This document shows, piece by piece, positions 11,166-50,463 of a stretch of DNA of 64,000 bases. Location of the stretch: the NCBI GenBank assembly GCA_022497155.1, contig MU385735.1:62001-126000 (forward strand), written 5' to 3'. This DNA comes from Whalleya microplaca (lineage: Eukaryota; Ascomycota; Sordariomycetes; Xylariales; Xylariaceae). Positions within the stretch are counted from its first letter, which is position 1. Each line of letters opens with the position of its first letter. The notes below the pieces were generated by a model. That model made no database searches, was not told the origin of the DNA, and worked only from the letters and a program-made list of their open reading frames with translations. The translations under genes were made by a program, and so were the position numbers.

Positions 11166-11388
11166 TATTATAAATTAACCTGATTTTATGCCCTAATTAG
11201 CCTGGGGTAATTTAGTAATAAGGCTAAAATCAGTAATGTACGGGCCTCGTAGCTAATTAAATAAAGTAAGGTAGCCATTATATTAAAATACCCGCGTATT
11301 TTTTGTAGTTTTAAATCTCTAGCTTTATTATATTATATTAATAAAATAAAAGGTATAACTATTATTACTACAGCTAGTTTTTATAATA
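11166..11388 (+). repeat. G1 LTR 1 (5' LTR of the first G1 element)
   Basis: This is a 223-bp copy of the repeat at 30194-30416 (223 bp) and 50226-50463 (238 bp). The start is TATTATAAATTAACC where the others have TGTTA, and it ends TTTTTATAATA. It is followed, as in the second G1 copy, by TAATAATAAAGCTTA and then gag. The left flank is TATCT. Confidence 0.88.
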
Positions 11389-12181
11389 TAATAATAAAGC
11401 TTATTTTATTAATTATTAATTATTAATTATTATCGAGAATAATTATAAACTTTTATTTTATATATAACCGATATTGAAATTATCGCATTTGCGAACCCGC
11501 AAAAAGACTTTAAAACCCGAAAGTACCGGATTAGTATATTTTATACCGAAACGATATATTATATTAGTAATAGCGCGTATATTTAAAAAACGTATAGCTA
11601 ATAAAAAGCGCGCCCGGAAAAAAGTACGCTTTTTTTTTACCCGATTTAAAACGGAACCTGCCGTAACTTAATTATATATATGATTCCGATTTAAAAAGTC
11701 GCTTTTATTTAAATAATACTTATAGTTTTAAAACGCCTACTATATCGGCAATTTTAAATAACGAAAAAAAACGGAAATAAAAAAATTTAAGAGGTTCGGA
11801 AAACCCTCGTTAAATTCCGAAAAAGTTTTAATAAAAAAGCTATAAAAAATTAATTTACGAAAAAACTTTAATAAAGCTAAATAAGTCTTACTAATAAACT
11901 TTAAATAATATAACCGAATTATATATTAATATAAAAAATAGCCTTTTTATACTTTCTTTATTATTAATATAGCTAGGTTATAAAAAATAGTTTAAAATAA
12001 AAGGCGCTATAAATGCTACTTAATTTAAAAATATATACGCTTACTTGGAAGCTTTATTTCAGGAATTTAAATAGCGAGCCTTTATATTAATAGCGTATTA
12101 ATATTAAATAACGTAAGTATATTATTTAATATATAAATAAAGTAACGCTATTAAAATATTACGCCATTAAAGATTTAATTT
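11389..12181 (+). pseudogene. G1 gag, first part (first G1 element)
   Basis: This stretch is collinear with 30417-31170 of the second G1 element, differing mainly at RIP-type sites. An open frame at 11474-11671 encodes a 65-residue basic peptide with IANKKRARKKVR; the same peptide series (PKKRVANKKRARKKVG) is present in the second copy near 30560. The frame is therefore probably real gag leader coding rather than chance, though it is broken on either side. At 12181 the sequence is cut by the G3 3' LTR after the target AATTT. The continuation lies at 20522 running backwards, because of the inversion described in the findings. Confidence 0.7.
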
Positions 12182-12372
12182 TATAAAAGGCCGTTACGTT
12201 AAGATGTAATTTTATAGTGCTAAATAAGTGTTTATTTTTTAACTAAAGAAAAAAAGAAAATTAAAAAGGTATATCGGTATAGCTTGAGAGTATTTATATT
12301 AAATTTCGAGAGCTGTGTTGTTATATTAGTTTATGATCGCCGATATTTCTTATTACGGTATAGCTTATTATA
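12182..12372 (-). repeat. G3 3' LTR, 191 bp
   Basis: It is the reverse complement of the repeats at 20523-20713 and 54684-54874, all exactly 191 bp. The left flank is AATTT (12177-12181). On the minus strand a polypurine tract adjoins its start, marking it as the 3' LTR of a minus-sense element. Its 5' partner now lies in the opposite orientation at 20523, explained by the inversion. Confidence 0.88.
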
Positions 12373-12387
12373 TTACCCCCCTTTTTA
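12373..12387 (-). promoter_or_regulatory. Polypurine tract of G3
   Basis: The minus strand reads TAAAAAGGGGGGTAA directly before the 191-bp LTR. This is the expected priming site for plus-strand DNA and fixes the sense of this piece of G3 as minus. Confidence 0.75.
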
Positions 12388-12826
12388 TTTTTGTGCGATT
12401 ATATCGCGTCCTTTATACCCGAGCGTAAAGTATATTTAGCTTCCCGTTAATTATTAGCGTTTTTAATTATTAATTATTTATTTTATTATTAATTAAAGCC
12501 GGTTCGGGAAATAATATAAAAATGTTTTTATAAAAAAAAATCTTTTGTTATAAAGGTTTTTAATTTTACGCTATTATTAATTAATCGAGTATAAAATAAA
12601 CGCGTGTAAAATTAAAGCTTAATTTCCGTTTTTAATTAGTTTTTTATTCGGTAATTAAACTTATTTTTAAATTAATAAGTCGATTCCCGCTTCTAATTAG
12701 TTTATGCGCGTAATTAACGTAATATATAATTAGCTTTTATAATTAGCCGCGTGATTAATTTTTTTTTTAAAATTGCTTAAATATTCCGGGCTTTTTCCGA
12801 AATTTTTTTTCTTTTTTTAGGCTATT
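12388..12826 (-). other. G3 3' non-coding end
   Basis: This lies between the G3 polypurine tract and A2 and has no coding motif that I can see. By the inversion model it joins the sequence ending at 27281, which is the lysine-rich 3' end of G3. The flank CTATT at 12822-12826 is the left target duplication of the A insertion. Confidence 0.6.
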
Positions 12827-13081
12827 TGTCACGGCACAGGGCCTGTGGGGTGCTGTAAGGCCCTGTAAGCTGTGCAGCTACAGGGCACCCCACTAGGCCC
12901 CTTATACGTGACCTATTAAACCACAGGCTTAGTTAGCTAGATTAAATAAGTAGGTGAGGAGGTTTTTTTAAATTAGGCTGTCATATAGTAATTAGCTGAC
13001 TTTTTATTTCTTACCTTATTATTTTATAGTAATATATATTTATTACTTAATACGCGCTGCCTTTTTTCTTAAGCCGTTATA
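12827..13081 (+). repeat. A2 5' LTR, 255 bp
   Basis: It begins TGTCACGGCACAGGGCC and ends AAGCCGTTATA. It contains a strong hairpin (12846-12892). The interior starts TAATAATAAGGTCC, conserved among A copies. Confidence 0.9.
12846..12892 (+). repeat. Conserved hairpin in the A-family LTR
   Basis: The outer arms TGGGGTGC (12846-12853) and GCACCCCA (12885-12892) and the inner arms CCCTGTA (12861-12867) and TACAGGG (12879-12885) fold around the near-palindrome AGCTGTGCAGCT. The same layout is visible in all eight A LTRs, more or less damaged by RIP. Being in the LTR it may lie in the transcript's terminal repeat; that role is inference. Confidence 0.6.
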
Positions 13082-14769
13082 TAATAATAAGGTCCTTTGG
13101 CGCTAAATTTAGCTGATTCCGCTATTATATTTATTTAGCGCTCTTTTTAATTAGCGTGGTTAATTAGTTACCTGTTGATTTTTTTTTTCGATCGGTATAG
13201 TCGATTAGTTACTTATTAATAACCTGTAATATAGTCGATTAGTTACTTATTAATAACCTTTTATACCGGTATAGTCGATTAGTTATTTATTAGTTACTTT
13301 TTTCTTTTATTAGTACCTTATCCGAACGTATTATACGTATTAATAGCTTAGTTTTAAAGAGTATATAGTTCGTTAAAAAGCTTTATATTAAAAGATAGTA
13401 TCGGCGTAATTAATTAGTTACCCGCTATATCTTATCGGATCTCGTTATATTAAATACGTATAGTAATATTTAACTATTTAGCGCTAAATTATGTCTGTTA
13501 TTTTTGCCGACCTTATTTTTTAAATACTTTTCTCGGTCCGAAATTATATTTAGGTACGGCGGATCCGATTTTTTTTACCCGTTATTTAGCGATTAGTTAC
13601 GGCAGCATAGCTATTTTTTTACTTATTTCTAGTAATTAGTTACGGCGAGTTATTTTTTTTTTACTTTTTTATATATTAATTTTGGCGATTAGTTACGGCA
13701 GTATATATGTTATTTTTATTACGCTAATATAGCGATTAGTTGCGGTAGCGTAATTTCTATTAGTTAACGGTGGATTTTATATAGAGTTACTACTAATATT
13801 TAACGTTAAAGCTGTTTTTTTTTTAGCGCCGAGGCTTTATATAAAACCGATAGCTACTTTCGCGTAATAGTAATTCCTTATTATTTATATATAAATTTTA
13901 TTTTAAAAACGTTTGATTTAGTTATTTTTTAAAGCGAGTAAACGTTTGTTATTATTTAAGTATTTATAGTAATCTAGCCGGCTTAATATAATCCGTTAGA
14001 TTTTTTTACAAATTATATATATTTTATACTTTAACTTTTATTAGTAGTTTCGAAATTACGTATTTAAAGTGCCGACCGATTATTATTAAGCTTTTTTTTT
14101 AATAGCTCGATTCGATAACTTTTTTTAATATGCTAATACTATATTTTACGGCTTTATTAATTGATAATTACGGATGCTGGTCCGGCGATAGCGCTATCCG
14201 AGCTTATTTAGTTCGATAGATCGTTAGTTTAGTATATTTTATAGCGAAATTTAATATGCTGGGATATTTTTGACGCGATTCCCGATATGTTTAAGCATAT
14301 TTAACCTCCAAGCGTATTTAATATTTTTGTTACAGCCTAATACCTGCTATTATATAGCTATTATATAAAATACTATAAGATTATACCGGTTCCGATATTA
14401 TATAATATTTTAAGGCTTATAGCAGCAGAAGGTAGGGATTTAAGGGGGTAAATAAGTTACAATAGTTGTTATATAGTAGTAGTAATAGCTAATTTAGCAG
14501 TTAATTATAGTGGTCGATATTAAGTGGTTATGGAAGAATATAGTGGATTAACTAAATTTTATAAAAGATTTAATTTTTAAAATTTTGACAAATTTATTTA
14601 ATGCTAATGTTAAGGTATATATAAATTTGGTGTGCTATAATATAAGGGTAAATAAGGTCGAAAAATCACCTTTTTAGGGCAGTGGTAATTAGGTTAATCT
14701 CTATATATACTAGGTGCGCTATAAGCTAGCTATTATTAGCTGTTATATATAGTGGATTTAGGGGGGTAA

Positions 14770-15024
14770 TATTACGGCATAAGGCCTGTGGGGTGCTATA
14801 AGGCCCTATAAGCTGTGTAGCTATAGGGTACCTTATTAGGTCCCTTACATGTGACCTGTTGAACTACAGGCTTAGTTAGCTAAATTAGATAAGCAGGTAA
14901 GGAGGTTTTCTTAGGTTAGGCTGTTATATAGCAATTAGCTGACTTTTTACTCCTTACCTTATTATTTTATAGTAATATATACCTATTATTTAACACGCGC
15001 CGCCTTTTTCCTTAAGCCGTCACA
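14770..15024 (+). repeat. A2 3' LTR, 255 bp
   Basis: It begins TATTACGGCATAAGG, the RIPped form of TGTCACGGCACAGGG, directly after the tract GGGGGGTAA. It ends AAGCCGTCACA. Confidence 0.9.
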
Positions 15025-16446
15025 AGAAGTAATTTCTAATCGATATAAATAATTTTCTATTTATTTTATTTTATAGTGTTATCGAGTTATTAAGTAGCTT
15101 AATTTATTAGTTAGTCGGTTTGTTAATTATACTTTTTTAATAATATATACCTGGTTTTTTATACCGAAATCGGGTTTACATCGCTTCCGGTTAGCTTAAT
15201 TTGCCATTTATAGTTAAGCTTTTTTATCTGGCGTTATATTTATTAAAGGTAAGTTTAAATATATTTAATAAATTGTTATGTCTTTTTACGATTTAGCTAT
15301 TTTTTATAGATTTTAGGGAAAGATTTTCCGTACGTTTTTTCCAGTTAAATAATATATTTATAGTGCGCCTATAAGTTACTTTTAATAGCGTTAGTTTTTC
15401 CAGTAATTTATAAGGTAAAATAGCTTATACGGCATTTATGGCGGGAATAATTTCCAATTAATTATTTTAAAAGTAATTTATAAAAGGTCGTAAATATTAA
15501 TCGAGATATTTATTTATCATTTCGGCTTAGCTAGCGGTTTACGAGTATTTTAAAGATAATAATTTCTATTTAATCCCGAAGATTTTAAAAAGTTTACTTA
15601 TAAAGTTAAAAATAAATTAAGGGCTTTTATCCGAAACGATAAATAAAGGAATTCCGTAAACACGGAAAGGTTTATTATAATATATACGCGTAATATTTTT
15701 AGCGGTAGCGGTTTTTTTATATAAGATAGTTTATAGCTTTTTTTTTAAATAATTTATAATTACTAATATATTATTATATCTCTGTTTATTTTCGGATATA
15801 GATTTAAAATTTATAATAATATAGTCTTATATTTAATTAAGTACCGGTAGGAAATATAATAATCCCGGTATTTTATTTCTAGGTAGTTTAGATAAAAAGT
15901 AAAGGCAATTAGCTATATATATATTTATATTTCTATTTAAGCCTAGCTATTAATATTATATTTTAACTATTAGATTTATTTTATAACGTCCGGAATATAT
16001 TATTAAAATCCGGGTATATATTTTAGTTAAAAATTTAATTCGGAAATAATTTTAGCGCTAATAATTACTCGGCTTTAATATAGTATTAGTTCTTAAGTTA
16101 TTTATTAATCGGAATTATATTTAATTTCCCGAACTTTTTTGCGGTATACCTTTAAGTTTAGGTCTTTTTTATTAGCTTTTAAAATCTTATTAATAAGTAT
16201 TATACTTAATAACTTAAATATGTTTACCTCGGCGAGATTTATTATATAAATATACAGTACTTTATTTAATTTATTTAACTCGTTTATAGCTAGTACGTAT
16301 TCGGTTATAACCTCCGAATCGGGCATTTTTTAAAAAATAGTTATCGTACGGTAAATTTTTTTTTTTTTACTTTTGCGTACGCTTTATATCCTTAAACCGG
16401 GAAAAAATATCTGCCAGTCCGTTTTCCAATCCTGGTTAATACGTAA
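15025..16446 (-). pseudogene. G1 integrase (first G1 element), RIP-inactivated and inverted
   Basis: The minus strand is collinear with 34850-35228 plus 48484-49530 of the second G1 element, without the E insertion. It starts with the RNase H/integrase linker: an unbroken frame of 73 codons at 16326-16105 reads ...INELNKLNKVLYIYIINLAEVN..., the same series as 34985-35190. The core contains AEMINKYLD-YLRPFINYF at about 15480-15420 (minus), matching Ty3/Gypsy integrases (A-EIVNKYLEQRLRPFINYF type). At 15025 it stops at the A2 boundary with flank CTTCT. The last third continues at 29488 on the plus strand. Reverse transcriptase is missing from this element because of a deletion at H1. Confidence 0.8.
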
Positions 16447-17273
16447 CAGGGTTATAATTAAGTCATTAGATTTAATGACTTAAGTTAGTCAAGCTTATGA
16501 CTTAAGTCAAGCTAGTTAGTTAGCTATCTAACTAAGACTAGTGCAAGTTAGTCAGGTAATTAACTAAAACTAACTTGCTTAAGGTAGTTAGTCACTTAAA
16601 AATGACTAATAACTTATTAAGAAATTGCTTTTTTTATAAAATTTAAAAAATTAAATACCGCTTTAAATATTATATATATATTAACTTTAAATTAACTTAT
16701 AGTATTACTTTATTACTTTATAACTAATAAAGTTAAAATAGTAATTTTACTTACTAAAATGAGCTAATTAATTAGATATTAAAATAATTTAATTTAAAAT
16801 CTTCCAATTTGTCGTTAAAACACCTTTCCTGAAATTCGCTATAATAAATTAAATATCTTTTTTATTATAATACTTATTAAAGCCGTTTTTGACTTACTAT
16901 AACCATATTATATGATATAATTATTAACGGTAAAAAGGTTATAATATTATTTAAATTTGTAAAGTTATTTTTATATTGAAAACATTTAATTTAAAACTTT
17001 TTAATTTGTCGTTTAAGTATGTTTTTAAAAAATAGTTGTAATAAATTTCATATCTCCTTTATTATAATAAATATTACAACCCTTTTTAGTTTATTATTCG
17101 TATATTATATATTATAAATATTAACGCTAAAATTATATTATTATATATTAAACTAAATAGATTATAGTAATATTAAAAATATTTAATTTGAAAAATTCCA
17201 ATTTGTTATTTAAGCACGTTTATTAAAAAATCACTATAATAAATGAAATATCTTTTTAAATATAATATAAAAT

Positions 17274-17446
17274 TAATACAAATAGTATAAAGTGAAGTAG
17301 TATATTATACGAAAGATAAGGATCTAGTATTTAAGTTATAGCTCCGCTATAACTTAAATACTTAGGATCTTTTATTTTTTTATTTACTTTATTTTATTTA
17401 AGCTAAATTAGCCTTAAAGGTTAGGGGCCCGTAAGGTCCTATATTA
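17274..17446 (-). repeat. D 3' LTR, 173 bp
   Basis: It starts TAATACAAATAG and ends TATATTA, parallel to 18504-18676. It contains a palindromic block around GTTATAGCTCCGCTATAAC (about 17334-17352). Confidence 0.88.
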
Positions 17447-17559
17447 AATGCCGGGGGATAAGAAAAATTTTATTACTTTTAACAAGTCTCTTTAAAATTA
17501 CGTAAGATTTTAAGATTTACGGGGGCAACTTTTAGGTCGCTTATTAATTATAATTTTAT

Positions 17560-18480
17560 TAAAAGCTAAATTAAGGTTAGCTTAAATATTTACCTTATAT
17601 AATGCCGCTTTTTTACGCGGCCGGCCGCGGGCTTTTTTAAATATAGTTTTGTTATTTTTATTATTAATTCCCGCTTTATTTTTAGCCTGTTTTACTGTTA
17701 TACAACTTTTTTTAGCGTTTTTAGTCTTCGGTAATAAGTTCCGGTAACTTGCGTAATTATTATTCCGATTTTTAGCTATTATTATAATGTTTATATCTTT
17801 TTTATTTTATTAAATAGTTAAATTTGTTGCGTTTATAGTTTAGGGTATATTTTATAATAATTTCGGTTTTATAGCTATTTCTGTCCTTTTTATTAAAATC
17901 TTTTTATTTATTTTTAACGGGTTTAAAAAATAGCGCATATTTATAAAAAGGGTTTTCGCTATTAGGTTTAAGTAATAAATAAGTTATTAAAATGATAAAG
18001 TAAATACCGATATTTTTATTACCAAAATCGAGTTTATATATAAGACGTTTTATACGTTTTTTAACTTTTTATAATCCGTGCCTTTATTATAAGTCCTTTT
18101 TAGGAAGCTTACCGGGTAAATAGTACCCGTTATATAAATTTAAATATATATTATCCCCTTCGTTAAATTTTATAGCCTTATACTTAATATCGTATAGGCG
18201 TTTGGCTCAGGCTATAGCGAAATCTATAAATAGCTTAATATCTTTACGGAGGTGTTTTTTAAAAAATCGAATGCTCTGGTATTCCTCCGTATTTACGGCG
18301 GTTAAAGCGTCATTAGGTCTAGGTGCAGCTCGCGGGCGATCCGGCCCCGTTAGTTATTGTAATAAACCTTATAAAAAACGTATGCGACGGCGCGGTCCGG
18401 ATCAAAATGTCGGTTAGAGTATTAGCCTTATAAAGAAAAATACGCCGATCCTAAATCCGATGGTTATAATGACTGTAATA
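17560..18480 (-). pseudogene. D: integrase C-terminus, chromodomain and AT-hook remnant
   Basis: The minus strand, read through a few stops, gives a long series from about 18400 to 17560. First comes KRLYDIKYKAIKFNEGD, then IYLNLYNGYYLPGK, the C-terminal box of chromovirus integrases. Near 17835-17740 NYLIK-KRYKHYNNS-KSE follows, a chromodomain core with its Trp codons now stops. Near 17638-17603 KKARGRPRKKAA contains the RGRP core of an AT-hook. Before the integrase box an unusual RPRAAPRPNDA-type stretch suggests a fusion left by internal deletion. Frames on the plus strand here, including 18202-18417, are complements of this coding strand. Stops are fewer than in neighbouring elements, hinting at a younger insertion. 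Confidence 0.7.
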
Positions 18481-18488
18481 AAACAAAA

Positions 18489-18501
18489 GCAGGTGCTACC
18501 A
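18489..18501 (-). promoter_or_regulatory. Primer-binding site of D
   Basis: The minus strand reads TGGTAGCACCTGC two bases after the 5' LTR. The implied tRNA 3' end is GCAGGTGCTACCA, with an acceptor stem ending U72-A73-CCA; a first-pair A1:U72 is the mark of eukaryotic initiator tRNA-Met. E carries the same site in mutated form (48316-48332). Confidence 0.7.
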
Positions 18502-18503
18502 TT

Positions 18504-18676
18504 TAATACAAATAATATAGGGTAAAGTAGTATATTATATATAAGATAGAGATTTAGCATTTAGGTTATAGCGGAGCTATAACCTAAATGCTTAAAATCT
18601 TTTATTTTTTTATCTACTTTATTTTATTTAAGCTAAGCTAGCCTTAAGGGTTAAGGGCCCGTAAGGCCCCGTATTA
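18504..18676 (-). repeat. D 5' LTR, 173 bp
   Basis: It starts TAATACAAATAA and ends CGTATTA, flanked by AAAAT. It has the same length as its partner, with differences mostly of RIP type. Confidence 0.88.
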
Positions 18677-19015
18677 AAAATATTATTTTTACTTATAATT
18701 TATTAATAATACATTATATTATAATTATTAAACTTAAAATAAAAATTATACCTTTTAAATTAAATAAATTATATAAAAGTTTAAATAATTATTAAAAAAA
18801 TCACAAAAGCTTGGCTAGTCATTAGTCATTTTTAAGTCACTAATTAACTGACTTATAAATGACTTAAGTTAGTTAGTCACTTGATTAAAACTAGCTTAAT
18901 TAGTTAGCAAGTTTAACTAAAATTAGCTTAGTTAATTATAACCTTTAATTAAAACTAGCAAGTTAATTAGTGACTAAAAAATAACTAATGACTTAAGTTA
19001 TTTATCATAACCCTA

Positions 19016-20522
19016 AATATAGCTATATTAATTAGCTATATTATATTATTATTAAACCTATTAATTTGTTACGGCTTAAATCTTATATCGTAAGTAATGT
19101 TAGTAATTTTAAAAGTCGTTTTACGAAACGTATGCTTATAAATATATAATTATTTACTTCTATATTCACTAATATATTATGTATAATTAATAAAAGTTTA
19201 TTATAAGTTATTATATATAAGGCTAGTAATAAGTTTCTTTTTAAATACCGATTTAAAAAATCAAATGGAATTTTGCCGATGTCGATATTTATTACTAATA
19301 ATATATTTTTTAAGATAAAGTTTAATTGCCTTAAAGTAGTTTTTTAGCTAATTGTCTTTAGGTGTAAATAATTTTTAAGCGTTAAATTCCGGGGTGTTTA
19401 TACGGGTTATAATTACGTTAAGTCAACCTGCTTTTAATTTGGTATATTTAATTTTATAAGAGTAATTAAATATAATATGATTTTTTTAATAATAAATAAA
19501 GTATTATTTTATTTCAATAAATATAAATCGATTAGCGTTATTAGTTAGTCATTTTTAAATTTTAGTTTCCCGATTTATTAATTTTTAAAAGCGCTATATT
19601 TTAATTGTTTTATATATTTGCTATATTTTTATTATTTATAGAAATATTTTTAATAAAGGTTTTATTTATTAATTTTTTGCTTTTGTTTTTCTCCGGTTAG
19701 GTTTTTTTGCCACCTTTTTTATTTAAGTAATGCGATTGCGATAATAATTATAGTTATATTACTAAATAATTTTATAAAATACCGCAAAATCTAATACTAG
19801 ATTATAATATTTATTAATAACGAGTATATTAAAACGGTCGGGTAGTTTTCCGAATAGGTTTTTTTTGTAATGTCGCGGGAATTATAAATTAAGCTTATAA
19901 AACGAACGAACTTTAAATGAAAGGTATTAAAATAATCCGGCTTTTTTATTTCGTATTTATCATATTTAATTAGTGCCTTATTATATTTATTAGGGTTTTT
20001 ATATTTCTCATTTATATATTATAATATTTCGTCCGCTATTATTAATAAAAAAAGTTTATATTTGTTTTTTTATAAATAAATAAAGCTATTCGGTTATATT
20101 ATCATTTATATAATCTAATATATAAAAACGTTTTTCCGTTTTTAAATAAAATATATTTATTTTAGCTATTAGCTTATTTTTTATTTATATTTTTTAACAT
20201 ATATCACCGATTTTACGCTTATTATTAGTAGGTTTATTATCTGTAAATATAAATAAGTCCGGTAATTTAACGCGATATAATTTTCTTTCCGTTAATATTA
20301 TATTAGATATACTTATATATAACATACCGGGTATTTTAGTTATAAGGTAAAGTACGTTTTCGGGGGCTTTAACGTTTAAAACAACCTGTTATATTATTAA
20401 AGTAACGCGTTATTACTAAATAATAATCTTTTTTAAATTTTTTAGTTAATTTTTCTTTTTTTTAATTAAGATATTTAAAGTGTTATTTATTATACCTGTT
20501 TTTTTAATTAAATACTTAAATT
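19016..20522 (-). pseudogene. G1 gag, second part (first G1 element), inverted
   Basis: The minus strand runs collinear with about 31155-32668 of the second G1 element. At 20522 it begins exactly where 12181 leaves off: after removing the duplicated AATTT, the joined text GATTTAATTTAAGTATT aligns to GATTTAGTTTAAATATT at 31151. At 19016 it abuts H1. Gag would form the particle shell; no capsid motif is readable. The separation of the halves by 8 kb and the strand switch are explained by a G3 insertion followed by inversion. Confidence 0.75.
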
Positions 20523-20713
20523 TATAATGGGCTATGCCGTAGTAAGGAATATCGGCGATTGTAAGCCGATATAGTAGCACGGTTCTCGAGACCTAATATA
20601 AATGCTCTCGAGCTATGCCGATATACCTTTTTAAAAAAAAAAATTTCTTTAGTTAAAAAATAAACACTTATTTAGTATCATAAAATTACATTTTAGCGTA
20701 ACGGCTTTTTATA
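20523..20713 (+). repeat. G3 5' LTR, 191 bp
   Basis: It starts TATAATGGGCTATGCCG and ends CGGCTTTTTATA. The left flank AAATT is the reverse complement of the flank AATTT beside the 3' LTR at 12182, giving a perfect 5-base target duplication once the inversion is undone. A gag-like ATG follows 47 bases later. Confidence 0.88.
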
Positions 20714-20759
20714 TATTTTCTAACTTACTAACTCTTAAGCTAGATTAAAACAAATTAAA

Positions 20760-22900
20760 ATGTCAAAAGAAGTTTTAAAGCAGCCCCTTAATAATCCGGA
20801 AATACCGTTAGCGAGATACACGGAAATATTAAATACTTAGGTCCGTTAGATTTCTACCCGCCTCGAGAAATACATATATATAATATTAGAAATAATATTA
20901 AAAAATAATTCGGAGAAATAACGACTAAAACGAGTAGTTTATAAATAAAAACTAAAAAAATAATAAAACGAACTATTATAATATTAAACGGTTTTAAAAA
21001 AACGGCTATAAAAAATCTCGACCTATTAATTATATAAAACCCGAGTATAATAAAAAGTGCTCCCGCATAAAACCCTCGGGATTTTTAAAAACCCTAAAAA
21101 GAGCTAGCTTAAATAAATATAAACCTTTAGCTAAAAAACCGTTAAGTATTTTTAATACCCGCCTTAATAATTACTATAGCCCCGGTATTTAAGCGCAAAC
21201 TATTATTATAGCCCAAGAAATTTAAGGGCGAGCGTAACCGTTATTCTATATAAAAATATTAATAAAATATAAACTTTAAAAAAATACGGAATTTATAAAA
21301 GGAGATTAAAATAAATAATATAATATTTATAAGCGGCTCGAAAATAACGTATAACGCGTAATAAAATTATATTATATTATAAAAAACCTAATAAAATATA
21401 CAATTTAATTTTTTAATACTTATTAAACGTTTATAAAAACTGTAATAAAGCTATTAAAGCAGGGGGCAAATTATATAAATATCGTTAATCCGTTAATTAA
21501 ATTTTTATATTTTTTATATTAACTTTAAGCGACTATTAATAAAAATAAAAAGTAATATATAAAATAATATAGTGAAATTTATATTTATCGAAAAAATAAT
21601 TAACGACAAATTTAAAAATGCGCTAATTTTAATAGCGTTACCGAATATTTATTAAAACTAGGTTTACTAAATAATAAATATCGTAGCCCGATTTAAAAAG
21701 TCGCTATTTTATTATAATAGGAATAATTTAAAAAACGAGATTACGCTAAATAAATTACCTTTTCCGGGCCTACTACATTTTACCCTTAATTGCCTTAAAA
21801 CTAATTATAAAGGCGATATATTAATAACCGGTATAATTACGTTAATAAAAAGCTAATAAACGAAATAAGTAATAATTAAAAAACGAAACGCTCGAATAAA
21901 GCGCGGAAAATACTTATAATATAAGAAAAAAAAGCTATTTATTTAAGAAATATATTTATTATTTAATAAAACTACCTACCTATATTAAAGTTAATATAAT
22001 AATAAGCTATAAATTTAAAAAAAATAATGCCGAAAAAATATTAAAAAAGCAAAAAGATAAATAGTTTTTAAATAAAATCGGGTTTAAAAATTTAACGTAA
22101 TAAAAAAATTAATATAATTAAGTAGTTTATAAACGGGAAATTTTTTATAATCGATATATATATATAAATTAATAACTATATATAAAAACTTTTATAAATT
22201 TAAGATATAAATATTATATTTTACTATTAATAAAACTATAATAAAACGCTTACAGTTATTGCGTATATTTATCCGGGAAAAAATAATAAAAAAAACTACT
22301 CGTAAAAAAATTTAAATATCTCGGGCATAATTTATAAGATAACTTATATAAAAGCTAATTTTAATAAATATACGTTAAAAATATTTACGTATATTATATT
22401 AAGGCTAAATTACCTTATAATATTAAAGAAAACCTTAAATAAAACGTAACCGGGTAATATATATAATATATAAATATATATTATATATAAAAGTTGCCGA
22501 AAATTTAAAAGTATAAAAAAAACACTCTTTAAAAATTATAAAAGTCTGTAAAACTCGGGAGGCACTTTATATTAATACGATATATTTCGTAAAAAAAAAT
22601 GAAAAAAGCTCGGAAATAAAAAAAGCTAGAAAAATAAGTAATTATTTAATAAACGGCTATATTTATTATTATATTAGCAATTAATAAAACTTTGGCGCTT
22701 AAAAAAACAAACGTTCGAAAGAATTTTTTTAATTAAAAAGCTAAAAAAAAGCAAGAATTTTGCGCCAAATCGCTTAAAAGCCGATTATAAAATTAACTTA
22801 AACCGTAATAAAGCGGGTAAAAAATTATTTACCTTTTAAAAACGATTATATAATATATTTCGAAAGAAATTATTAGCGTTATAAAAAATATTAATTAAGC
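20760..22900 (+). pseudogene. G3 gag and gag-pol linker, RIP-inactivated
   Basis: The frame starts at ATG 20760 and reads MSKEVLKQPLNNPEIPLARY before the first stop, which sits at a likely Gln or Trp codon. The start fits: it is the first ATG after the LTR and the following 29 codons are open. Downstream the frame is eroded. The length (about 2.1 kb before reverse transcriptase motifs) suits gag plus protease, but I could not place a zinc knuckle or the protease active site. G3 is the only element here whose gag, pol and both LTRs can all be located. Confidence 0.6.
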
Positions 22901-24330
22901 TATTAAATAAAAGGTATATCCGTATAAATAACTCGCTTATAAAAGCTTTTATACTTTTTATCCGGAAACTAAATAGCGGATTTCGATTTTATTATAATTA
23001 TAAAATACTAAATAATATTATTTAGCGAAATCGGTACCCGTTTCCGCTTATATAAAAAACGCTTAAAACTTTTTTAGAAACGAAATAATTTTTAAAAATA
23101 AATATAAAGTCGGCTTTTTATAAAATTAAAATTAAAAATAAATAAATAAAAAACGGCTTTTTATATCCGCTTTAAACTATTTAAATAATTTATAACCCTG
23201 TTTAGTTTAATAAATATTTTTATAACGTTTTAATATTACGTAAATAATACGTTAAAAAATACTTGAATATTTTAAATTCAATATATATAAATAATATATT
23301 AATTTATTTTTTCGGAACAAAAAAGATTATGTCAATAAAATAAAAAAAATATTAAAATATTTAAAAATAACGGGCTTAAATTTAAATATAAATAAATATA
23401 AATAAATATAAATAAATATAAATTTATAATAACTATTATAAAATATTTAAGATTTATTATCGAAATAAAAAAAAGTTTATATAAATCCGGCTAAAATATA
23501 AGTAATTAAAAAATAAAAAGCTTTTAAAATATTTAAAAAATTTTATAATTTTTTAAAATTTATAAACTTTTACCGGGATTTTATTAAAAACTATATAAAT
23601 TTTATTACCTTTTTATTAACATTTATAAAAAAAGGGTACCGTTTCGATAAAGGCTTTCGGAAAATTTAACGTTCGAAAATTTTAAATAAACATTTTTAAA
23701 AAAATCAGGCTTAATATAATAAAACCCCGAACCGGAAATGGTAATCGAAATAAATTATTCGGGATAAACTTACAGAAAATACTTATTATAACGCAATAAA
23801 TAAGGAATTTTATTACCTATAACTTATTATTTTAAACGCTTAATCCCGGAAAAACTAATTATAAAATTTTAATAAAAAATTACTAGCAATTATAAACTAC
23901 TTATAAATCTAAACCGTAAAATTATAAAACGTAACTTTAATATTTATAATTTTATCTAACTATAAAAATCTAAAATATTTTATAATTTTTAAAAAACTTT
24001 CCGAACAATAAATATATTAGTTAAAAATTAATACGTTTTAATTTCCGATTAAAATTTCGCGCTAAACGCTTAAATATTAAACTTAACATTTTTTTACGGC
24101 ATAAATAAAACCTATTATAAAAGATATAAAATAAACAGTATAAAAAACGGAAATTCTAATTATTATAAAAAGATAATGACTTTATATATAACTTAAAAAT
24201 ATAAATAAAGAAATATTACTAAAATAAAGTATATTTAATTATATAAATAAAATATTCCGGAATATAAAAAAATTTTCGAATATAAAAATCTATAATTACT
24301 ATACATTATAAAAGTAATAAAAAACCCGAA
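22901..24330 (+). pseudogene. G3 Gypsy-type reverse transcriptase and RNase H, RIP-inactivated
   Basis: Read through stops: RYPFPLI at about 23030 (RYPLPLI box), K-NIKSAFYKIKI near 23100 (the LDI..AFHKIRI box with its Asp now Asn), then the catalytic box YINN at 23284-23295 followed by ILIY. Both aspartates of YxDD have become asparagine. KCKF-like and FLGF..FYR-like stretches follow, then RNase H with an NYKILIKNY segment resembling NYEIHDKELL. The order and spacing match Ty3/Gypsy pol. The gene is certainly non-functional. It reads plus here but would read minus before the inversion. Confidence 0.85.
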
Positions 24331-26000
24331 TTATACGCGAGTAATAAAAGCGGTAGCTTAAAAAAAACCGAGCGTTTTTTCAAAACCTAAACGTAAAAAT
24401 ATTATTATCGGAATATAATATTAATAATAAAAGTCGATTGTATTTCCGCAAATACATTTAAATCTTTAATTAAAAACCGCTTTATACCGCGCTAATATAA
24501 AATACTTATAACTTATATTTCATAAACTACCCGGAAAGGGAGAATATATTAGTAATACTTTCGAAAACGTTTTATTAACTTAAAATATCGGCGTTTATAA
24601 AACGCTTTTATAAAAATTACGATATTTATAAAAAAAATAATATAACGTAATTAAAAAAAGGGCTTTTAAAACCGTTACTTATTCCGAATCGATTTTATAA
24701 TAAACTATTCATTTATTTTATAACTAACTTATTAGCTGCTTTTAAATAAAACTTTATTTTTATAATAATAATTTTTAATAAATTAAAGAAGTAAGTTATA
24801 TTAAAGGCTATAACTTTAATAAAGACAGAAATATATACCAAACGGTTCGTAAATTATTATTAAAAATATTATAATTTTTCTTATATTATAACTAATAATA
24901 AAGAATTTAATTAAATAAAGTAATTTTAAAAATAGCTTTATTTATTAATAAAAAAAAGTAATATTTATTAATTACGTTTTACCCGGAAACCGATAAAATT
25001 ATTAAATAAGCAAACTATAAAGTATTAATATATTTTCGAGCGTTTATATTATATATTTAATTCGAATATAACTTATTATTACCGGAAGCGATATTTATTA
25101 TTAATAACCGAAATACTATAATAATAAAGCTAAATCTTTTTTTTATATTTTATAAATATTACGTAAAACTTATTTCAATAATAAAATATATTTTAAAACT
25201 TATTTCCGAATTACGCGTACGGGCGGAAGCTTTTATTTAGCGTTTAAAAAAGGCAATAAACTTCGCTTAAGCCGTAATAGTAATTATATAATAATAATAA
25301 TAATAAAATATAACTAATAAACGGCAATCTTTTATAAAGTAATTTCGAATAAGAAATAAAATATAATTAACGTTTAAAAATATTTTTATATTTTAACCTT
25401 TATAAAAACTAGCATAATTATATATTAAATATAAAATAACCTATATTATTAACCCTTAAATAGAAAAACTAAATATATTAAAAAAATATATAACCGGTTT
25501 TATATGGAGCTTATTTATTACGTAAAAAATAATCCCCTACTTTTAAAAAAAACCGAAAATATATAACCTCTCCTTATAATTAGTAAAAAAAAAAGAAAAA
25601 AAATAGTAAATAAAGGAAATTATTTAAGCAATTATTAAATAAAAAAGGCAAAAAAAACTAAATAAGTATTAATAAAATATATAAAATATATAATTTTAAT
25701 ATAAAAACTATTCGAAAACTTAAAAAATACCGAAATAGTAAATGATTTTAAAGAAAATTATAATAATATAAACATAAATAATAAGCTTAAAAAATTAATA
25801 TAAAAAGAAAAGCGAAAGTTATATTCGCGTAGCGATTATAAAATTAATAAGGTATTAGTAAAATATAAAAACGAAAAAATATAAGCGGGATAAAAAATAC
25901 TACGGGAGATTATAAATTTTTTATTATTATAAATAGCGTAAACGTTATTCCCGGGTAAGTAATAAATAATTTTTTTTATGTACGTAATTTTTTTTAATAA
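24331..26000 (+). pseudogene. G3 Gypsy-type integrase, RIP-inactivated
   Basis: At about 24520-24600 the text FINYPERENILVILSKTFY leads into the zinc-binding end, then FIYFITNLLAAFK at 24707-24745 matches the DFITDLPA block at the start of the integrase core, with both acidic positions lost. AITLIKTEIYTKRFVNYY (about 24800-24860) and a RFTRKPIKLLNKQTIKY stretch (24965-25020) match the following core blocks (TSIKTEI..RFV, YHPETDGQTE). The C-terminal domain is not clear. Family assignment is firm from block order. Confidence 0.8.
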
Positions 26001-27281
26001 ACCGATAACTAAAATTATTATAAAATCGACCGAAAAACGTAATAAACTTAACCGAGCGGCGTATTTATATTAACCGAGAATTAATAATTTAGCTCGTTAT
26101 TTTATTTTATTTTTTTGTTTACGTTTATCGCTTTTCTTTTTATTTTTATAAAAAAGAACTTACGGGAACGGCTAAAACGATAGCAAAAAATATTAACGGA
26201 AGTAAAAGAAATATACGGGCAAAAGATATATAAGTCACGCTCGAGCAAAAGGTTTATAATAATAATAAAAACGGGCGGGATAAGCCGAAAAAAAACCAGA
26301 AATAAAAATATACATACAAGTTATAAATGCGACGTTATTTATTATAAAACGCGTAATAACTATAATATCGCTAATATTATTAATAATACGCTCGAGCGGG
26401 CGAGCGATTTTTTTAAACGTAATTATAAGCTGCTTTTATATAATATATAAGCTAAAAAAATTATAAAAAAATAAAATAAAAACTTATATATTATTTCTAT
26501 TATTATTAATCCCTAGTTTAATTTAAAGCCGTAACGTTTATTTTATCACACTCGAAATAAATAACGATATTAATAACGCGTTACGTTGACATTTCGGCCG
26601 ACTTTTAAATAGTAATAAAAACCAAATAAAAAAATAAATAATAAAAATATTATAAAAAAGCGGGAGGAACTAATTTACTAAAATTTAAACTATTATAAAC
26701 TCGATGAATTTTTACTAAAATAATAATAAAAAAGCAAATTTCGGTACTTATAAGTAGTTATAAACCAGGGTTAAAACGGTATTCGAATAAAAAAAATAAG
26801 CGATAATTTATAATAAAGCAGTTATAACTTTTAATATATTTTATATATGATATATTATAAATAGCTAAATATAATTAGTATTATATTTAAAATACTTTAA
26901 TATTAAAAAAAAGAAAAAAACTTATAAATTTAATCGGAATAAAAGGCGGAAAGGTTTTTAGCTATACGGCTAACGTAAGGGTAGCACGGGATATAATACG
27001 TAAAAAAAAAAAAAACTATAAGAGTAACGCGAATAAATAGCCCATTAAAAGCGATAGAACCGGAAGGAAAACGAGACAAAAATATAATAGCGGCGGTAAT
27101 AAAAGCAAGAATAGGCGAAAATAGCGGCAAAAAAAAAGTGCGTTACGGAAACACTACGGAAAAATATATTAATAACCCAAATAATAAAAAAATTAAAAAA
27201 TTAAAAAACAAAAAAATAAAAAACAAAAAAATAAAAAAATAAAGTAAATAGTTAAAAAAATAAGTCTTTACTTATAAATAG
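26001..27281 (+). pseudogene. G3 pol C-terminal end and lysine-rich 3' part
   Basis: Beyond the integrase the strand is eroded, with a purine-rich lysine series near 27180-27250 (repeats of AAAAAATTAAAAAAC type). A minus-strand open frame at 26930-27130 is a by-product of this composition. The sequence ends at the A3 boundary with flank AATAG. By the inversion model the missing end of G3 is 12826-12373. Confidence 0.5.
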
Positions 27282-27536
27282 TGTGACGGCTTAAGGAAGG
27301 AGGCGGCGCGTGCTAAGTAATAGGTGTGTATTATTATAAAATAATAAGGTGAGGAGTAAAAGGTCAGCTAATTGCTGTGTGATAGCCTGACCTAAGAAAA
27401 CCTCCTTACCTGCTTATTTAATTTAGCTAATTAAGCCTGTGGTTTAATAAGTCACGTATAAGGGGCTTAATGGGGTGCCTTATAGCTGTATAACTTATAG
27501 GGCCTTATAATACCTTATAAGCCTTATGTTATAATA
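27282..27536 (-). repeat. A3 LTR, left copy, 255 bp
   Basis: It begins TGTGACGGCTTAAGG, little mutated. The end TTATGTTATAATA is the RIPped form of CTGTGCCGTGACA. Confidence 0.9.
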
Positions 27537-29232
27537 TTACCCCCCTGAATTTACTATATATAATAGCTAATAATAGCTAGCTTATAGCGTACCTGGTATA
27601 TATAGGGATTAACCTAATTACTACTGCCTTAAAAAGGTAATTTTTCGACCTTATTTACCCTTATATTATGGCATATTAAATTTATATATGCCTTAATATT
27701 AGTATTAAGTAAACTTGTTAAAATTTTGAAAATCGAGTTTTCCGTAAGATTTAGTTAATCTATTATATTCTTTTATAACTATTTAGTATCGACTACTATA
27801 ATTAACTGCTAAATTAGCTGCTGCTGTTATTATATAATAGCTATCGTAACTTATTTACTTTTTTAAATCCCTGCCTTTTGTTGCTATAAGCCTTAGGGTA
27901 TTATATAATATCGGAACCGGTATAATCCTATAGTATTTTATATAATGGCTATATAATAGTAGGTGTCGGGCTGTAATAAGGATATTAGATATATTCGGAA
28001 GTCGGATATATTTAGACGTATCGGGGATTGCGTTAGGAGTATTTTAGCATATTAAATTTCGCTATAAAATATACTGGACTAGTAATTTATCGGATTAAAT
28101 AAGCTCGGATAGCGTTATTGCTAAACCAGTATCTGTAATTGTTAACTAATAAAGCTATAAGATACGGTATTAGCGTATTAGGAAAGGTTATTAAATCGAG
28201 CTATTAAAAAAAAAAGCTCGATAGTAATCGGTCGGTACTTTAAGTACGTAGTTTCGAAATTATTAACGAAAGTTAAGGTATAAAATATATATAATTTATA
28301 AGGGAATCTAACAGATTATATTTAAGCCGGCTAAATTATTACGAATGTTTAAATAATGGCAAACGTTTATTCGTTTCAGAAAGTAATTAAATTAGACGTT
28401 TTTAAGGTAAGACTTATATATAAATAATAAGGGATTATTATTACGTAAGAGTAGCTGTCGGTTTTATATAAAGTTTTGGCGCTAAAGGGAAAAAAAATAG
28501 TTTTAACGTTAAATATTAGTAATAACTTTATATAAAGTTTACTATTAATTAATAAAGATTACGCTGCCGTAATTAATCGCTATATTAGCGTAATAAAAAT
28601 AATATATATATTGCCGTAACTAATTATTAGAATTAATATATAAAAAAGTAAGGAAAGGATAATTTGCCGTAACTAATTATTAGAAACGAGTAAAAAAATA
28701 GCTACGTTACCGTAACTAATTGCTAGATAACGGGTGAAAAAATCGGATCTGCCGTGCTTAAATATAATTTCGGACCGAGAAAAGTATTTAAAAAATAAGG
28801 TCGGTAAGAATAATAGGCGTGATTTAGCGCTAAATAGCTAGATGCTACTATACGTATTTAATATAATAAGGTCCGATAAGATATAGCGGGTAATTAATCG
28901 ATTATGCCGATGCCGTTTTTTAATATAAGGCTTTTTAACAAATTATATGCTTTTTAAAATTAAGCTATTAGTGCGTATAGTATATTCGGACGAGGTATTA
29001 ATAAAGAAAAAAAGTAACTAACGAGTAACTAATCGATTATACTAGCGCAAAAGGTTATTAATAAATAACTAATCGATTATATTATAGGTTATTAATAGGT
29101 GACTAATCGATTATACCGATCGAGAAAAAGGAGGATTAACGGGTGACTAATTAATTATGCTAATTAAAAAGAGCGCTAAATAAATACAATAGCGGAATTA
29201 GCTAAATTTAGCGCTAAAGGACCTTATTATTA

Positions 29233-29487
29233 TATGACGGCTTAAAGAAAAAGGCGGCGCGTATTAAATAATAGGTATATATTATTATAAAATAATAAGG
29301 TAAGGAGTAAAAGGTCAGCTAATTACTATATAATAGCCTGACTTAAAAAAACCTCCTTACCTGCTTATTTAATCTAGCTAACTAAGTCTGTGGTTTAATA
29401 GGTCACGTGTGAGGGGCCTAGTGGGGTGCCCTGTAGCTGTATAGCTTATAAGGCCTTACAGCATCCCATAGGCCCTGTGCCGTGACA
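29233..29487 (-). repeat. A3 LTR, right copy, 255 bp
   Basis: It begins TATGACGGCTTAAAG and ends GGCCCTGTGCCGTGACA. It has the same length as its partner. Confidence 0.9.
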
Positions 29488-30193
29488 CTTTTTTTTTATA
29501 AAAAGACATTAAAATATTTTATGCCCATTGCTTACGAAAATATATAAATAGTTTATTGCCCGGTTAAAACTTATTTTAACTTATAAAAGATATAGTAAAT
29601 TTTAATAAACTAAAAACAAAAGAATTTAAAGTAAACCGGATCTTAATTTCCCGATTATACTATTAAAAGCTATAATATTAAATATAATAAAAAAATAAGA
29701 TTTAAATCCGGAATAATATAATACGTCGAATTTTAAAAACGCCGCTATTAAATTAAAGAATTATTATAAGGCTTACCTAAATTACGTAAAACCACCGAAA
29801 CGCTTATAGTAATAGCTTAAAATAACGGAAAAAAACAGGTTTAAAAAGGATTATCGGGATAACGATGCCTTTATTATAGTAAATATAACTAATCGGCAAC
29901 AGATAAAGCGGAAGAAAAATTAATAATAACGAGCGCTTTTATAAACCATATAAATAAATTAATAACAATAAATTATATAACCCGGTTACGCCTTTAATTT
30001 AAAAGCCTATTAGCGTAATTAATTAAACCGAAAGCATTTTTCCACTGCTTAAGAAACATTTGTTTTAAACCATTTAGGTTTACGGCTTTATTTAAAACAA
30101 TAAATATACCTAGATTCGAAACCCTAGGTAGGCGCCGGTTTTTTAATTTTTATTCGAGTCTCGGGACAAGCCTTTATTTATAAAAGGAAATAA
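29488..30193 (+). pseudogene. G1 pol 3' end (first G1 element)
   Basis: It is collinear with 49527-50225 of the second G1 element, from a TATAAAAG stretch through the block CTTACG(A/G)AAATATATAAATA to the LTR. It would encode the integrase C-terminus or tail and the 3' untranslated end; I see no chromodomain. Its left part is 15025-16446 on the other strand. It ends directly at LTR 2, the 3' LTR of this element. Confidence 0.7.
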
Positions 30194-30416
30194 TGTTATA
30201 AATTAACTTAATCTTATGCTTTAATTAGCTTAGGGTAATTTAGTAATAAGGCTAAAATTAATAATATACGGGCCTCGCAGCTAATTAGGTAAAATAAAGT
30301 AGCCACTATATTAAAATACCCGCGTACCTCCCGTAATTTTAAATCTCCAGCTTTATTATATTATATTAATTAAACAAAAGGTATAACTATTACTATTATA
30401 GCCAGTTCTTATAATA
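30194..30416 (+). repeat. G1 LTR 2, shared by two tandem G1 elements
   Basis: It is 223 bp and begins TGTTATAAATTAACTT. On its left is a G1 3' end, on its right a G1 leader and gag, so it serves as 3' LTR of the first and 5' LTR of the second element. Confidence 0.88.
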
Positions 30417-33400
30417 TAATAATAAAACTTACTTTATTAATTAATTATCGATTACTATTAAAAACAATTATAAACTTTTAATTAATATTACATTTATTAA
30501 TATTAAGGTTCTTATATTTGCGAACCCGCGAAAATATATTATATTAATAATAACGCGTATACCTAAAAAACGTGTAGCTAATAAAAAACGCGCCCGGAAA
30601 AAAGTGGGCTTTTTTTTACCCGATTTAAAGCGGAACTTGTTATAGCTTAATCGCGTACGTAATTCCGATTTGGGAAGTCGCTTCCGATTAAATAGTACTT
30701 ATAGTTTTAAAGCGCTTATTATATTAGTAACTTTAAATAACAAAAAAAACGGAAATAAAAAAAGTTAAAAAGTTCGGGAAATTTTCGCTAAATTTCGAGA
30801 GATTTTTAACAAAAAAGCTATGAAAATTTAATTTATAAATTTTTTTTAGTAAAGTTAAGTAACTTTTTCTAATAAATATTAAATAATATAGCCGAGTTAT
30901 ACGTTAATACAAAAGATAGCTTTTTTATACCTTTCTTATTATTAATATAGCTAAGTTATAAAAAGTAGTTTAAAGCGGAAAATATTATAAATATTACTTA
31001 ATTTAAAAATATATATGCTTATTTAAAAGCTTTATTTTAGGAATTTAAATAGCGAGTTTTTATATTAATGGCGTATTAATATTAAATAATATAAATATAT
31101 TATTTAATATATTAATAAAGTAGCGCTATTAAAATATTATATAATTAAGGATTTAGTTTAAATATTTAATTAGAAAAGAAATAAATATAATAAACGGTAT
31201 TTTAAATATTTCAATTAAAAAAAGAAAATTTAATTAAAAAATTTAAAGGAGATTATTATTTAATAATAACGCGCCACCTTATAAATATAACAGGTTTTTT
31301 TTAGCGTTAAAGCTCCCGAGAATATATCCCGCTTTATTATTAAAATACCCCGTATATTATATATAGGTATATCCGGTATAATATTTATAAAAAAAAAGAT
31401 TATATTGCGTTAAATTACCGGACCTACCTATATTTACAGATAATACGTTTATTAATAGCAAGCTTAAAATCGGTTATATATATTAGAAAATATGAATAAA
31501 AAATAAGCTAGTAGCTAATGTAAATATATTTCACTTAAAAACGGAGAAACGTTTATATATATTAAATTATATAGGTAATAATATAGCCGAATAGCTTTAT
31601 TTATTCGTGAGAGATAAATATAAACCTCCCTTATTAATAATAGCGGATAAAATTTTAAAATATATAAATAAATAATATAAAAACCCTAATAAATATAATA
31701 AAATACTAGTTAAATATAATAAATACGAGATAAAAAAGCCGGATTATTTTAATATTTTCCGCTTAAAATTTGTTTATTTTATAATATTAATTTATAATTT
31801 CCGTAATATTTAAAAACGTGACTTATTTAAAAAGTTACCTAATTATTTTAATACGTTTATTATTAACGAATATTATAATTTAACCTTAGATTTTATAACG
31901 TTTTATAAAATTATTTAATAATATAATTATAATTATTACCGTAACCGTATTATTTAAGTAGAGAAAAAAGCGGTAAGAAAAGATTTTTAACTAGAAAAAA
32001 AAGTAAGGGATTTATAAATAGGACTTTTGTTAAAGATAACTTTATAAATAGTAAAGGTATTATAAACGTATAGAATAATTAAAATATAGCGCTATTAAAT
32101 ACCGATAAGTCGGGAATTAAAATCTAGAAACGACTAATTAATAATGCCGACTAATTTATACTTATTTAAATAAAATAATATTTTATTTATTACTAAAAAG
32201 GGCATACTGCCTTTAGCTATTCTTATAAAACTAAATATATTAAATTAAAAATAAGTCGACTTAATATAATTATAACTTATATAAATACTTTAAAATCTAA
32301 CGCTTAAAAATTATTTACACCTAAAAATAATCAGCTAAAAAAATAACCTTAAGGCAATTAAATTTTATCTTAAAGAATATATTATTAATAATAAATATTA
32401 ATATTAGTAAAATTTTATTTTATTTTTTAAATCGGTATTTAAAAGGAAACTTATTATTAGTTTTATATATAATAACTTATAATAAACTTTTATTAATTAT
32501 ATATAATATATTATTAGATATAAAAGTAAATAGTTATATGTTTATAAGCGTGCGTTTTATAAAGCGACTTTTAAAATTACTAAAGTTATTTATAATATAA
32601 GAATTTAAATTATAATAAATTAATAGATTTAATAAAAACGCAATATAGCTAATTAATATAGCTATATTTATATATTTATAAATATAAAACCGCACTATTT
32701 AAAATATTATATTTCTCGTTATCGATATAAAATACGATATTATTATATAATAAAAATAGTTCGATTAATATAACGTTATAATAAATATATAATATTATTA
32801 TTTTTTATTTTTGCCCGAATAAAAACCGGATTACGAAATACGTAATTTAGTTATAAACGATATAAAAAGATTATTACCCGATTAAAATAATAGCTAATAA
32901 TAGGATACTTTTATTAAAAAAACGTATAAATCTCGAGAATAAATATAAACGCGATAGCCGTAAGGGTCATAAACGTTTAGATATAAAAGTAATTATAGTA
33001 GCTATAATCGAAAAGTTATATAAAAAAAATATTATTAAGGATCATCGATCTTTTTTTAATTAAGTAGTATATTAAAAAGCTAGAAATAATAAAAAAACCC
33101 CGGTTACGGAGCAAATTATAGTTATACCTATTTAAATTACTAAATTACGATAGATTTTTAACGCTATATTTATATAATGCCAAGATTTCTATATATAACT
33201 TAAAGAGATTTAGGAAATATAACAGTAGCTAGATTAAGTAATTATAAAACTTAATAAGCCGCCCGATCCGGAAAAACCTAAAATCGAAATAAATAAAAAC
33301 AATAAAGGTATTTATATATAATGAAAGGGCTTTATAAAATAGTATAAATATTATATAAATATCGCCGTTATTAATATAATACCTTTCGATAAAGCTATAA
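30417..33400 (+). pseudogene. G1 gag and gag-pol junction (second G1 element)
   Basis: This is the uninterrupted copy of the gag split in the first element. Near 30545-30620 the basic series IPKKRVANKKRARKKVG is open. At about 32192-32230 IYY-KGHTAFSY resembles a CCHC zinc knuckle with its cysteines changed to tyrosine, a TGY to TAY change typical of RIP; the spacing is one residue short of the standard, so this is tentative. After 32650 lies the stretch deleted in the first copy. Protease probably falls between 32700 and 33400 but is not readable. Confidence 0.6.
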
Positions 33401-34930: not shown

Positions 34931-35228
34931 AAGAAATATTATATAATAACTATCTTTAAAAAAATACCCGATTCGAAAGTTATAACTAAATATGTATTAG
35001 CTATAAATAAATTAAATAAATTAAATAAAGTATTATATATTTATATTATAAATCTCGTCGAAATAAATATATTTAAGCTATTAGGTATAATATTTATTAA
35101 CGAGATTTTAAAGGCTAATAAAAAGGACTTAAACCTGGAAATATATCGTAAGAAAGCTTAAAAAGCTAAATATAATTCCGATTAATAAATAATTTAAAAA
35201 CTGGTATTATATTAAAGTCGACTAATCG
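34931..35228 (+). pseudogene. G1 RNase H-integrase linker, cut by E
   Basis: This is collinear with 16326-16050 (minus) of the first element: KLNKVLYIYIINLVEINIFKLLG (about 35010-35090) and KANKKDLNLEIYRKKA (35112-35160). The frame has only a few stops. It ends at the target AATCG (35224-35228) where E inserted, and resumes at 48484. Confidence 0.75.
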
Positions 35229-48334: not shown

Positions 48335-48483
48335 TATAATAGTAAACCATAAGGTGATATTAAAATATGTATTAATTTATAATCTCTTTAAAACTAACAG
48401 TCCTAAAGGATAACTATTTAAGGACGGAAGATTCGTTTTAGCTGGACGGAAGATCTATCCTAGCTTATAAGGCGTTCCTAACA
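48335..48483 (-). repeat. E 5' LTR, 149 bp
   Basis: It is the uninterrupted partner of the LTR holding H2. The plus strand starts TATAATAGTAAACC and ends GGCGTTCCTAACA, followed by the duplicated AATCG. Confidence 0.9.
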
Positions 48484-50225: not shown

Positions 50226-50463
50226 TGTTATCAATTTACCTAATCTTATAACCTAATTAGCCTGGCCTAATTTTAGCTTAAAGTAATTTAGTAATAAAGC
50301 GTATTTAATAATATACGGATTTTGTAACTAATTAGGTAAGGTGGGGTGGCTATTATATTAAATACTTACGCACCTTTTATAATTTTAAATCTCCAGCTTT
50401 ATTACATTATATTAATTAAGCAAAAGGTGTAACCTATTACCCCTATAGCTAGTTCTCGTAATA
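50226..50463 (+). repeat. G1 LTR 3 (3' LTR of the second G1 element)
   Basis: It is 238 bp and begins TGTTATCAATTTACC and ends AGTTCTCGTAATA. It carries a small insertion (TTTTAGCTTAAAG) relative to the other two. The right flank AGAAG does not match the flank left of LTR 1 (TATCT). Confidence 0.87.

Follow-up and report, generated by a model that had tools for sequence, protein, structure and literature searches.

A window of 64,000 nucleotides from the fungus Whalleya microplaca (assembly GCA_022497155.1, contig MU385735.1, positions 62,001 to 126,000 of the forward strand; coordinates below are those of the window) contains two inverted copies of a long terminal repeat (LTR) element, A2 and A3, which bound a 12,257-bp segment that carries parts of two larger nested repeats, G1 and G3. 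We conclude with high confidence that a single inversion by ectopic recombination between A2 and A3 produced this arrangement, because the two copies are inverted, their target duplications are exchanged, the corresponding sites are empty in paralogous transposons, and flipping the segment restores the continuity of G1 and G3. This bears out the original prediction, made from the letters of this window, which had proposed such an event; its coordinates and flanks for A2 and A3 also proved correct. It is probable, with somewhat less assurance, that a large part of G1, and perhaps of G3, had already undergone repeat-induced point mutation (RIP) when the crossover took place, and that most mutations in A2 and A3 came later. 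The elements, the inverted segment, and the flanks are as follows.

12827..15024, + strand: A2, LTR element with 255-bp LTRs at 12827-13081 and 14770-15024
27282..29487, - strand: A3, LTR element opposite in orientation to A2, with 255-bp LTRs at 29233-29487 and 27282-27536
15025..27281: inverted segment of 12,257 bp between A2 and A3
12822..12826, + strand: A2 left flank CTATT, half of the target duplication of the A copy inserted in G3
15025..15029, + strand: A2 right flank AGAAG, pairing with the A3 right flank (G1 target site)
27277..27281, + strand: A3 left flank AATAG, reverse complement of the A2 left flank
29488..29492, + strand: A3 right flank CTTTT, one copy of the target site in G1 (supported by all 11 empty G1 copies aligned)

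When each element is read in its own orientation, A2 lies between CTATT (left) and AGAAG (right), and A3 between AAAAG (left) and CTATT (right). The 5-bp duplications of the two elements are swapped: the flanks of each disagree with one another and match those of the other element, exactly on one side and with a single transition on the other. The chance of one exact match and one match to within a single transition was 9e-5 for 5-mers drawn from the local sequence. Elements of the A family have direct LTRs, TG..CA ends (some mutated to TA), and 5-bp target duplications, with TAAT and GGTAA as recurring junction letters. Among 21 complete A copies (the window plus 20 fetched loci, with partial copies of the fetched loci left out and LTRs paired into elements by eye), the duplication was kept in 18, exactly in 14 and but for transitions in 4, and the flanks disagreed in only three, namely, A2, A3, and one copy on contig C8. 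Four other A pairs also match crosswise, yet every member of these has its own duplication, leaving A2 and A3 as the one crosswise match in which neither element has agreeing flanks of its own and which therefore needs an exchange. The copy on contig C8 (L003e2, L003:4788-7000; flanks ACTAG/TTAAA) is a possible second recombinant; a second exchanged pair was rejected, as this copy had no partner among the 21.

The A family is likely non-autonomous, judging from its size and from a Pfam scan that gave no match in five pieces from three A copies, all heavily mutated. The rearrangement at A2 and A3 agrees with the earlier suggestion that short non-autonomous LTR elements can serve as rearrangement sites, with non-autonomy itself no more than likely. 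Like the elements called terminal-repeat retrotransposons in miniature (TRIM) and large retrotransposon derivatives (LARD), A is short and has LTRs, TG..CA ends, 5-bp duplications, and no recognized protein in the tested pieces. It differs in that its 2.2 kb and 255-bp LTRs exceed the dimensions of typical TRIMs, which are smaller.

The two insertion sites could be reconstructed from other copies of the host repeats, which carry both halves adjacent and so allow the flanks to be paired to insertion sites; these empty sites are paralogous transposon copies rather than an orthologous locus. For G1, the halves at 15025 (reversed) and 29488 adjoin with an exact 5-bp overlap in all 11 aligned copies (one of them copy 2 of the window, the others from 10 fetched loci), drawn from at least 22 other site-spanning matches over 500 bases. 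The letters at this site are CTTTT in eight copies, TTTTT in two, and CCTTT in one; A3 retains CTTTT, and the A2 side reads CTTCT. For G3, the halves at 12826 and 27281 (reversed) adjoin with an exact 5-bp overlap in all 13 copies aligned, which come from 12 fetched loci and read CTATT or CTATC at the site.

The host elements themselves lie partly inside and partly outside the inverted segment, as listed below.

11166..12181, + strand: G1 copy 1, 5' LTR and first interior part, outside the inversion; matches 30196-31159
12182..12372, + strand: G3 LTR that stayed outside the inverted segment, with AATTT (12177-12181) before it
12373..12826, + strand: G3 internal part left outside the inversion
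15029..16446, - strand: interior part of G1 copy 1, within the inverted segment; matches 34853-35226 and 48489-49524
16458..19014, + strand: copy of an independent dispersed repeat of ~1.2 kb, split by an insertion of ~1.4 kb; gives no evidence on the inversion
19014..20520, - strand: interior part of G1 copy 1, within the inverted segment; matches 31157-32670
20523..20713, - strand: second G3 LTR, within the inverted segment, with AATTT after it (20518-20522 on the - strand)
20714..27281, - strand: remaining G3 interior, carried inside the inversion
29488..30431, + strand: 3' portion of G1 copy 1 with its 3' LTR, outside the inverted segment; matches 49524-50479

When the segment is flipped, both G1 and G3 become continuous and collinear again. 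The AATTT duplication of G3 itself (12177-12181 on the + strand and 20518-20522 on the - strand) then closes on G1, as had been predicted: the joint 12181/20522 maps with a 5-bp overlap to 31155-31159 (AGTTT) of G1 copy 2, and at least 22 other G1 matches over 400 bases cross this insertion point uninterrupted. The inverted orientation, the exchanged duplications, the empty sites, and the collinearity after the flip can all be read directly from the assembled sequence. The original prediction counted four independent joints; each was confirmed in a separate check, and together they are consequences of one inversion rather than independent events. The reference copy used here, G1 copy 2, is in its turn interrupted by insertions and has one LTR in common with copy 1, and copy 1 has no counterpart of 32671-34852. 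Over 11166-50479, the two G1 copies form an LTR-interior-LTR-interior-LTR array with a common middle LTR at 30194, whose outer flanks (TATCT/AGAAG, read by eye) mismatch, a pattern expected if two separate insertions had recombined through their LTRs.

Alignment of A2 with A3 gave 1,865 identical positions, 332 transitions, 0 transversions, and 10 gap columns (~15% divergence), and the four LTRs of the two elements differ by transitions alone, alignment edges aside. A2 differed from other A elements by 21 to 56 transversions in the 15 compared, out of 19 other complete copies and over aligning parts only; this comparison and the half-polarity comparison below left out the split L006/L007 copy, L014 (+), L016, and the outer L019 copy. 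Given the lack of transversions between A2 and A3 against 21 to 56 elsewhere, the two were nearly identical before mutation and closer to each other than to any of the other copies compared. Their differences carry a RIP-type signature, namely, transitions only with a strand bias, and the mutations look RIP-like; relative to what remains, CpA was hit most (A2 C>T), though CpT, CpC, and CpG were hit too. A genome search for DNA methylases returned five PF00145 matches over the cut-off at four places, among which RID was not told apart from other methylases. A gene conversion tract at the crossover was considered and rejected, as the longest identical run between A2 and A3 (46 bp, at alignment position ~683) was reached in length by 265 of 2,000 shuffles.

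The strand bias also bears on timing. At each C/T or G/A difference, the copy with T or A was counted as mutated, which in element orientation gave 136 C>T versus 30 G>A for A2 and 34 versus 132 for A3, uniform along both elements. A crossover after mutation would have switched the polarity within each element, and a model with such a switch was worse by >3 log units at positions 46 to 2153 and by 67 at most. On this uniform polarity, a crossover after mutation is rejected, and so is a swap in the assembly, for any point from element position 46 to 2153. Likewise, none of the 17 A copies tested switched polarity significantly from one half to the other (smallest p, 0.15), with other A copies as the reference and weaker biases (A2, 79:31; A3, 34:73). 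On the present + strand, the private mutations of both elements are mostly C>T (136/166 in A2 and 132/166 in A3).

The host element G1 shows the opposite history. In window orientation and measured against copy 2 only, the interior of G1 copy 1 had C>T to G>A ratios of 34:66 outside the joints (LTRs left out) and 124:94 inside them, a difference that is significant as the sequence lies (p = 0.00017) and disappears with the inside reversed (p = 0.14). G3 agrees weakly, with ratios of 22:15 outside and 200:296 inside; these differ in the present order (p = 0.025) but not with the inside reversed (p = 1.0). Because the polarity of G1 flips at the joints and evens out on reversal, G1 was likely mutated to a large extent before the inversion, and G3 perhaps also, with A2 and A3 mutated mostly afterwards. 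The original prediction placed the event within RIPped DNA; this agrees with the host G1, and perhaps G3, appearing to have been mutated earlier, and needs amending for the A copies, which would have been near-identical and mostly unmutated when they recombined.

From these data, we infer a homologous crossover with the following order of events. G1, and perhaps G3, would have been mutated first. An A element would have inserted into the G3 copy nested in G1, generating the duplication CTATT, and a near-identical A element would have inserted in the opposite orientation further along the same G1, generating a CTTTT-like duplication. A crossover between these inverted copies would then have flipped the intervening 12.3 kb and left each with one flank from either insertion site, after which both A2 and A3 would have been mutated. 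The rearrangement is unusually clear here because the repeat-mutating defense of the fungus shows on which side of the event most mutations fell. We further suggest, as a tentative and rather doubtful extension, that the crossover fell in the brief gap between transposition and RIP, perhaps in the very premeiotic nuclei where RIP pairs repeats, that RIP afterwards locked the inversion in by driving the copies too far apart for a reverse exchange, and that RIP strand polarity could serve as a built-in phase marker and clock. The link between RIP pairing and crossover is speculation, since RIP recognition is described as recombination independent in Neurospora (PMC4858203).

Several observations weigh against this reading or its timing. 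The single C/T mismatch noted earlier at the second duplication is real and in detail is a T-to-C change on the A2 side (CTTCT versus CTTTT in 8 of 11 copies), which is not the RIP direction. All of the evidence comes from one genome, and with 0 transversions between them, A2 and A3 have no older substitution markers that could show them to be chimeric. The G1 5' LTR (11168-11403) opposes the rest of the outside sequence, with a C>T to G>A ratio of 13:2 when compared with the second LTR of copy 1, and adding the LTRs weakens the G1 polarity flip to p = 0.008, or to 0.0007 with LTR 3 as the reference. The G3 test is weak, with 645 bp outside, where the interior alone is neutral (12:13). Finally, the polarity data are silent on a post-RIP crossover in the outermost ~45 bp of the elements. 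Such an event, a variant that overlaps with the inversion by A2-A3 crossover, is compatible with the polarity at the extreme element ends, but it would leave very little sequence for recombination between copies of 85% identity, and the longest identical run of 46 bp lies internally; we consider it unlikely.

An assembler that swapped paths through two inverted 2.2-kb repeats would produce the same flank pattern on a chromosome that is in truth un-inverted, and the case made here rests on assembled sequence. The divergence of 15% between A2 and A3, however, suffices to tell the copies apart in assembly, and the true elements after such a swap (A2-left/A3-right and A3-left/A2-right) would both switch polarity midway, which none of the 17 tested A copies does significantly; for A2 and A3, the uniform model beats the switch by up to 67 log units. 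The divergence and the uniform polarity together make an assembly error very unlikely. End-joining of breaks or template switching during replication can also yield inversions, with the A copies then merely nearby. We give this route hardly any credence, given that neither breakpoint lies beyond the ends of A2 and A3, that no base was lost, that the four flanks lie at element ends, and that both 5-bp duplications are present.

One part of the inverted segment departs from the predicted collinearity with the reference G1 copy, which holds across the joints. The stretch 16458-19014 matches 35335-36501 in the direction opposite to that of the remaining G1 (+ against -). A local second inversion was rejected, as this is an independent dispersed repeat of ~1.2 kb with its own ends, of which 23 other near-complete matches share the same ends; we take it to have inserted independently in both G1 copies. 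The counterpart at 35304-36501 has internal repeats, and the 23 other matches are 82 to 95% identical and mostly less diverged than the LTR elements. The ~1.4-kb insertion in the copy inside the inversion is bounded by a 176-bp direct repeat (17273-17448 and 18503-18678) and resembles a small LTR element, and an insertion of ~12 kb in G1 copy 2 carries an 80-bp direct repeat at either end (36503-36582 and 48402-48481; 89% identical). Within the G3 LTR inside the inversion, nine consecutive transversions at 20635-20643 (an A-rich run to a T run, against six other aligned G3 LTRs) resemble a tiny inversion.

The coding content of the host elements was searched with Pfam. A reverse transcriptase match in a piece of a sibling G3 copy (L028) backs the assignment of G3 as a putative LTR retrotransposon. 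The labels gag and integrase earlier given to G1 were not confirmed: seven sense-strand G1 pieces had no match over the cut-off, sub-threshold matches to SPT16 and TRP models (E values of 0.06 and 0.04) were taken as chance, and a search for the integrase zinc-finger family found 31 places in the genome and 0 in the window.

Comparable cases are known from other organisms. Judged by title, none of four papers on W. microplaca concerns its transposons, and no published use of RIP polarity to date rearrangements was found, the latter being no proof of absence. The Galileo inversion 2z3 of Drosophila buzzatii (PMC2775673) likewise involves element copies in opposite orientation with exchanged target duplications and a single-copy target in the un-inverted sequence. 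Galileo is a DNA transposon with visibly chimeric copies for which non-inverted chromosomes were compared directly, whereas A2 and A3 are LTR elements among nested, mutated repeats of a fungus, bound a 12-kb segment, and have empty sites that come from paralogous transposon copies. Among fungi, 125 of 640 complete LTR elements of Mycosphaerella fijiensis have disagreeing flanks, read as ectopic recombination (PMC3562529), and six elements of Sclerotinia sclerotiorum were treated as signs of the same process (PMC5004834). These resemble A2 and A3 in that a single element has unlike insertion sequences on its two sides; the available portions of those two reports give neither the reciprocal partner nor the rearrangement, both of which are resolved for A2 and A3. 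In Podospora anserina, disparate ends in 7 of 150 full crapaud copies (PMC10787394) similarly led to gene conversion or ectopic recombination being inferred between LTR elements in a RIP-active fungus, with the difference that detection was by LTR sequence groups rather than by target duplications and an inversion. C. heterostrophus was analyzed by recombination programs (PMC4112212), and non-allelic recombination at Styx copies was proposed in a fungal wheat pathogen (PMC10853768). An inversion with exchanged duplications is thus of a known kind, and what the present case adds is its resolution and its dating by polarity. Because sibling transposons served as empty sites, a single genome sufficed to resolve both the partner copy and the rearrangement, with no need for a second strain, and mutation polarity provided relative dating together with an argument against assembly error, both of which could be carried over to other RIP-bearing genomes.

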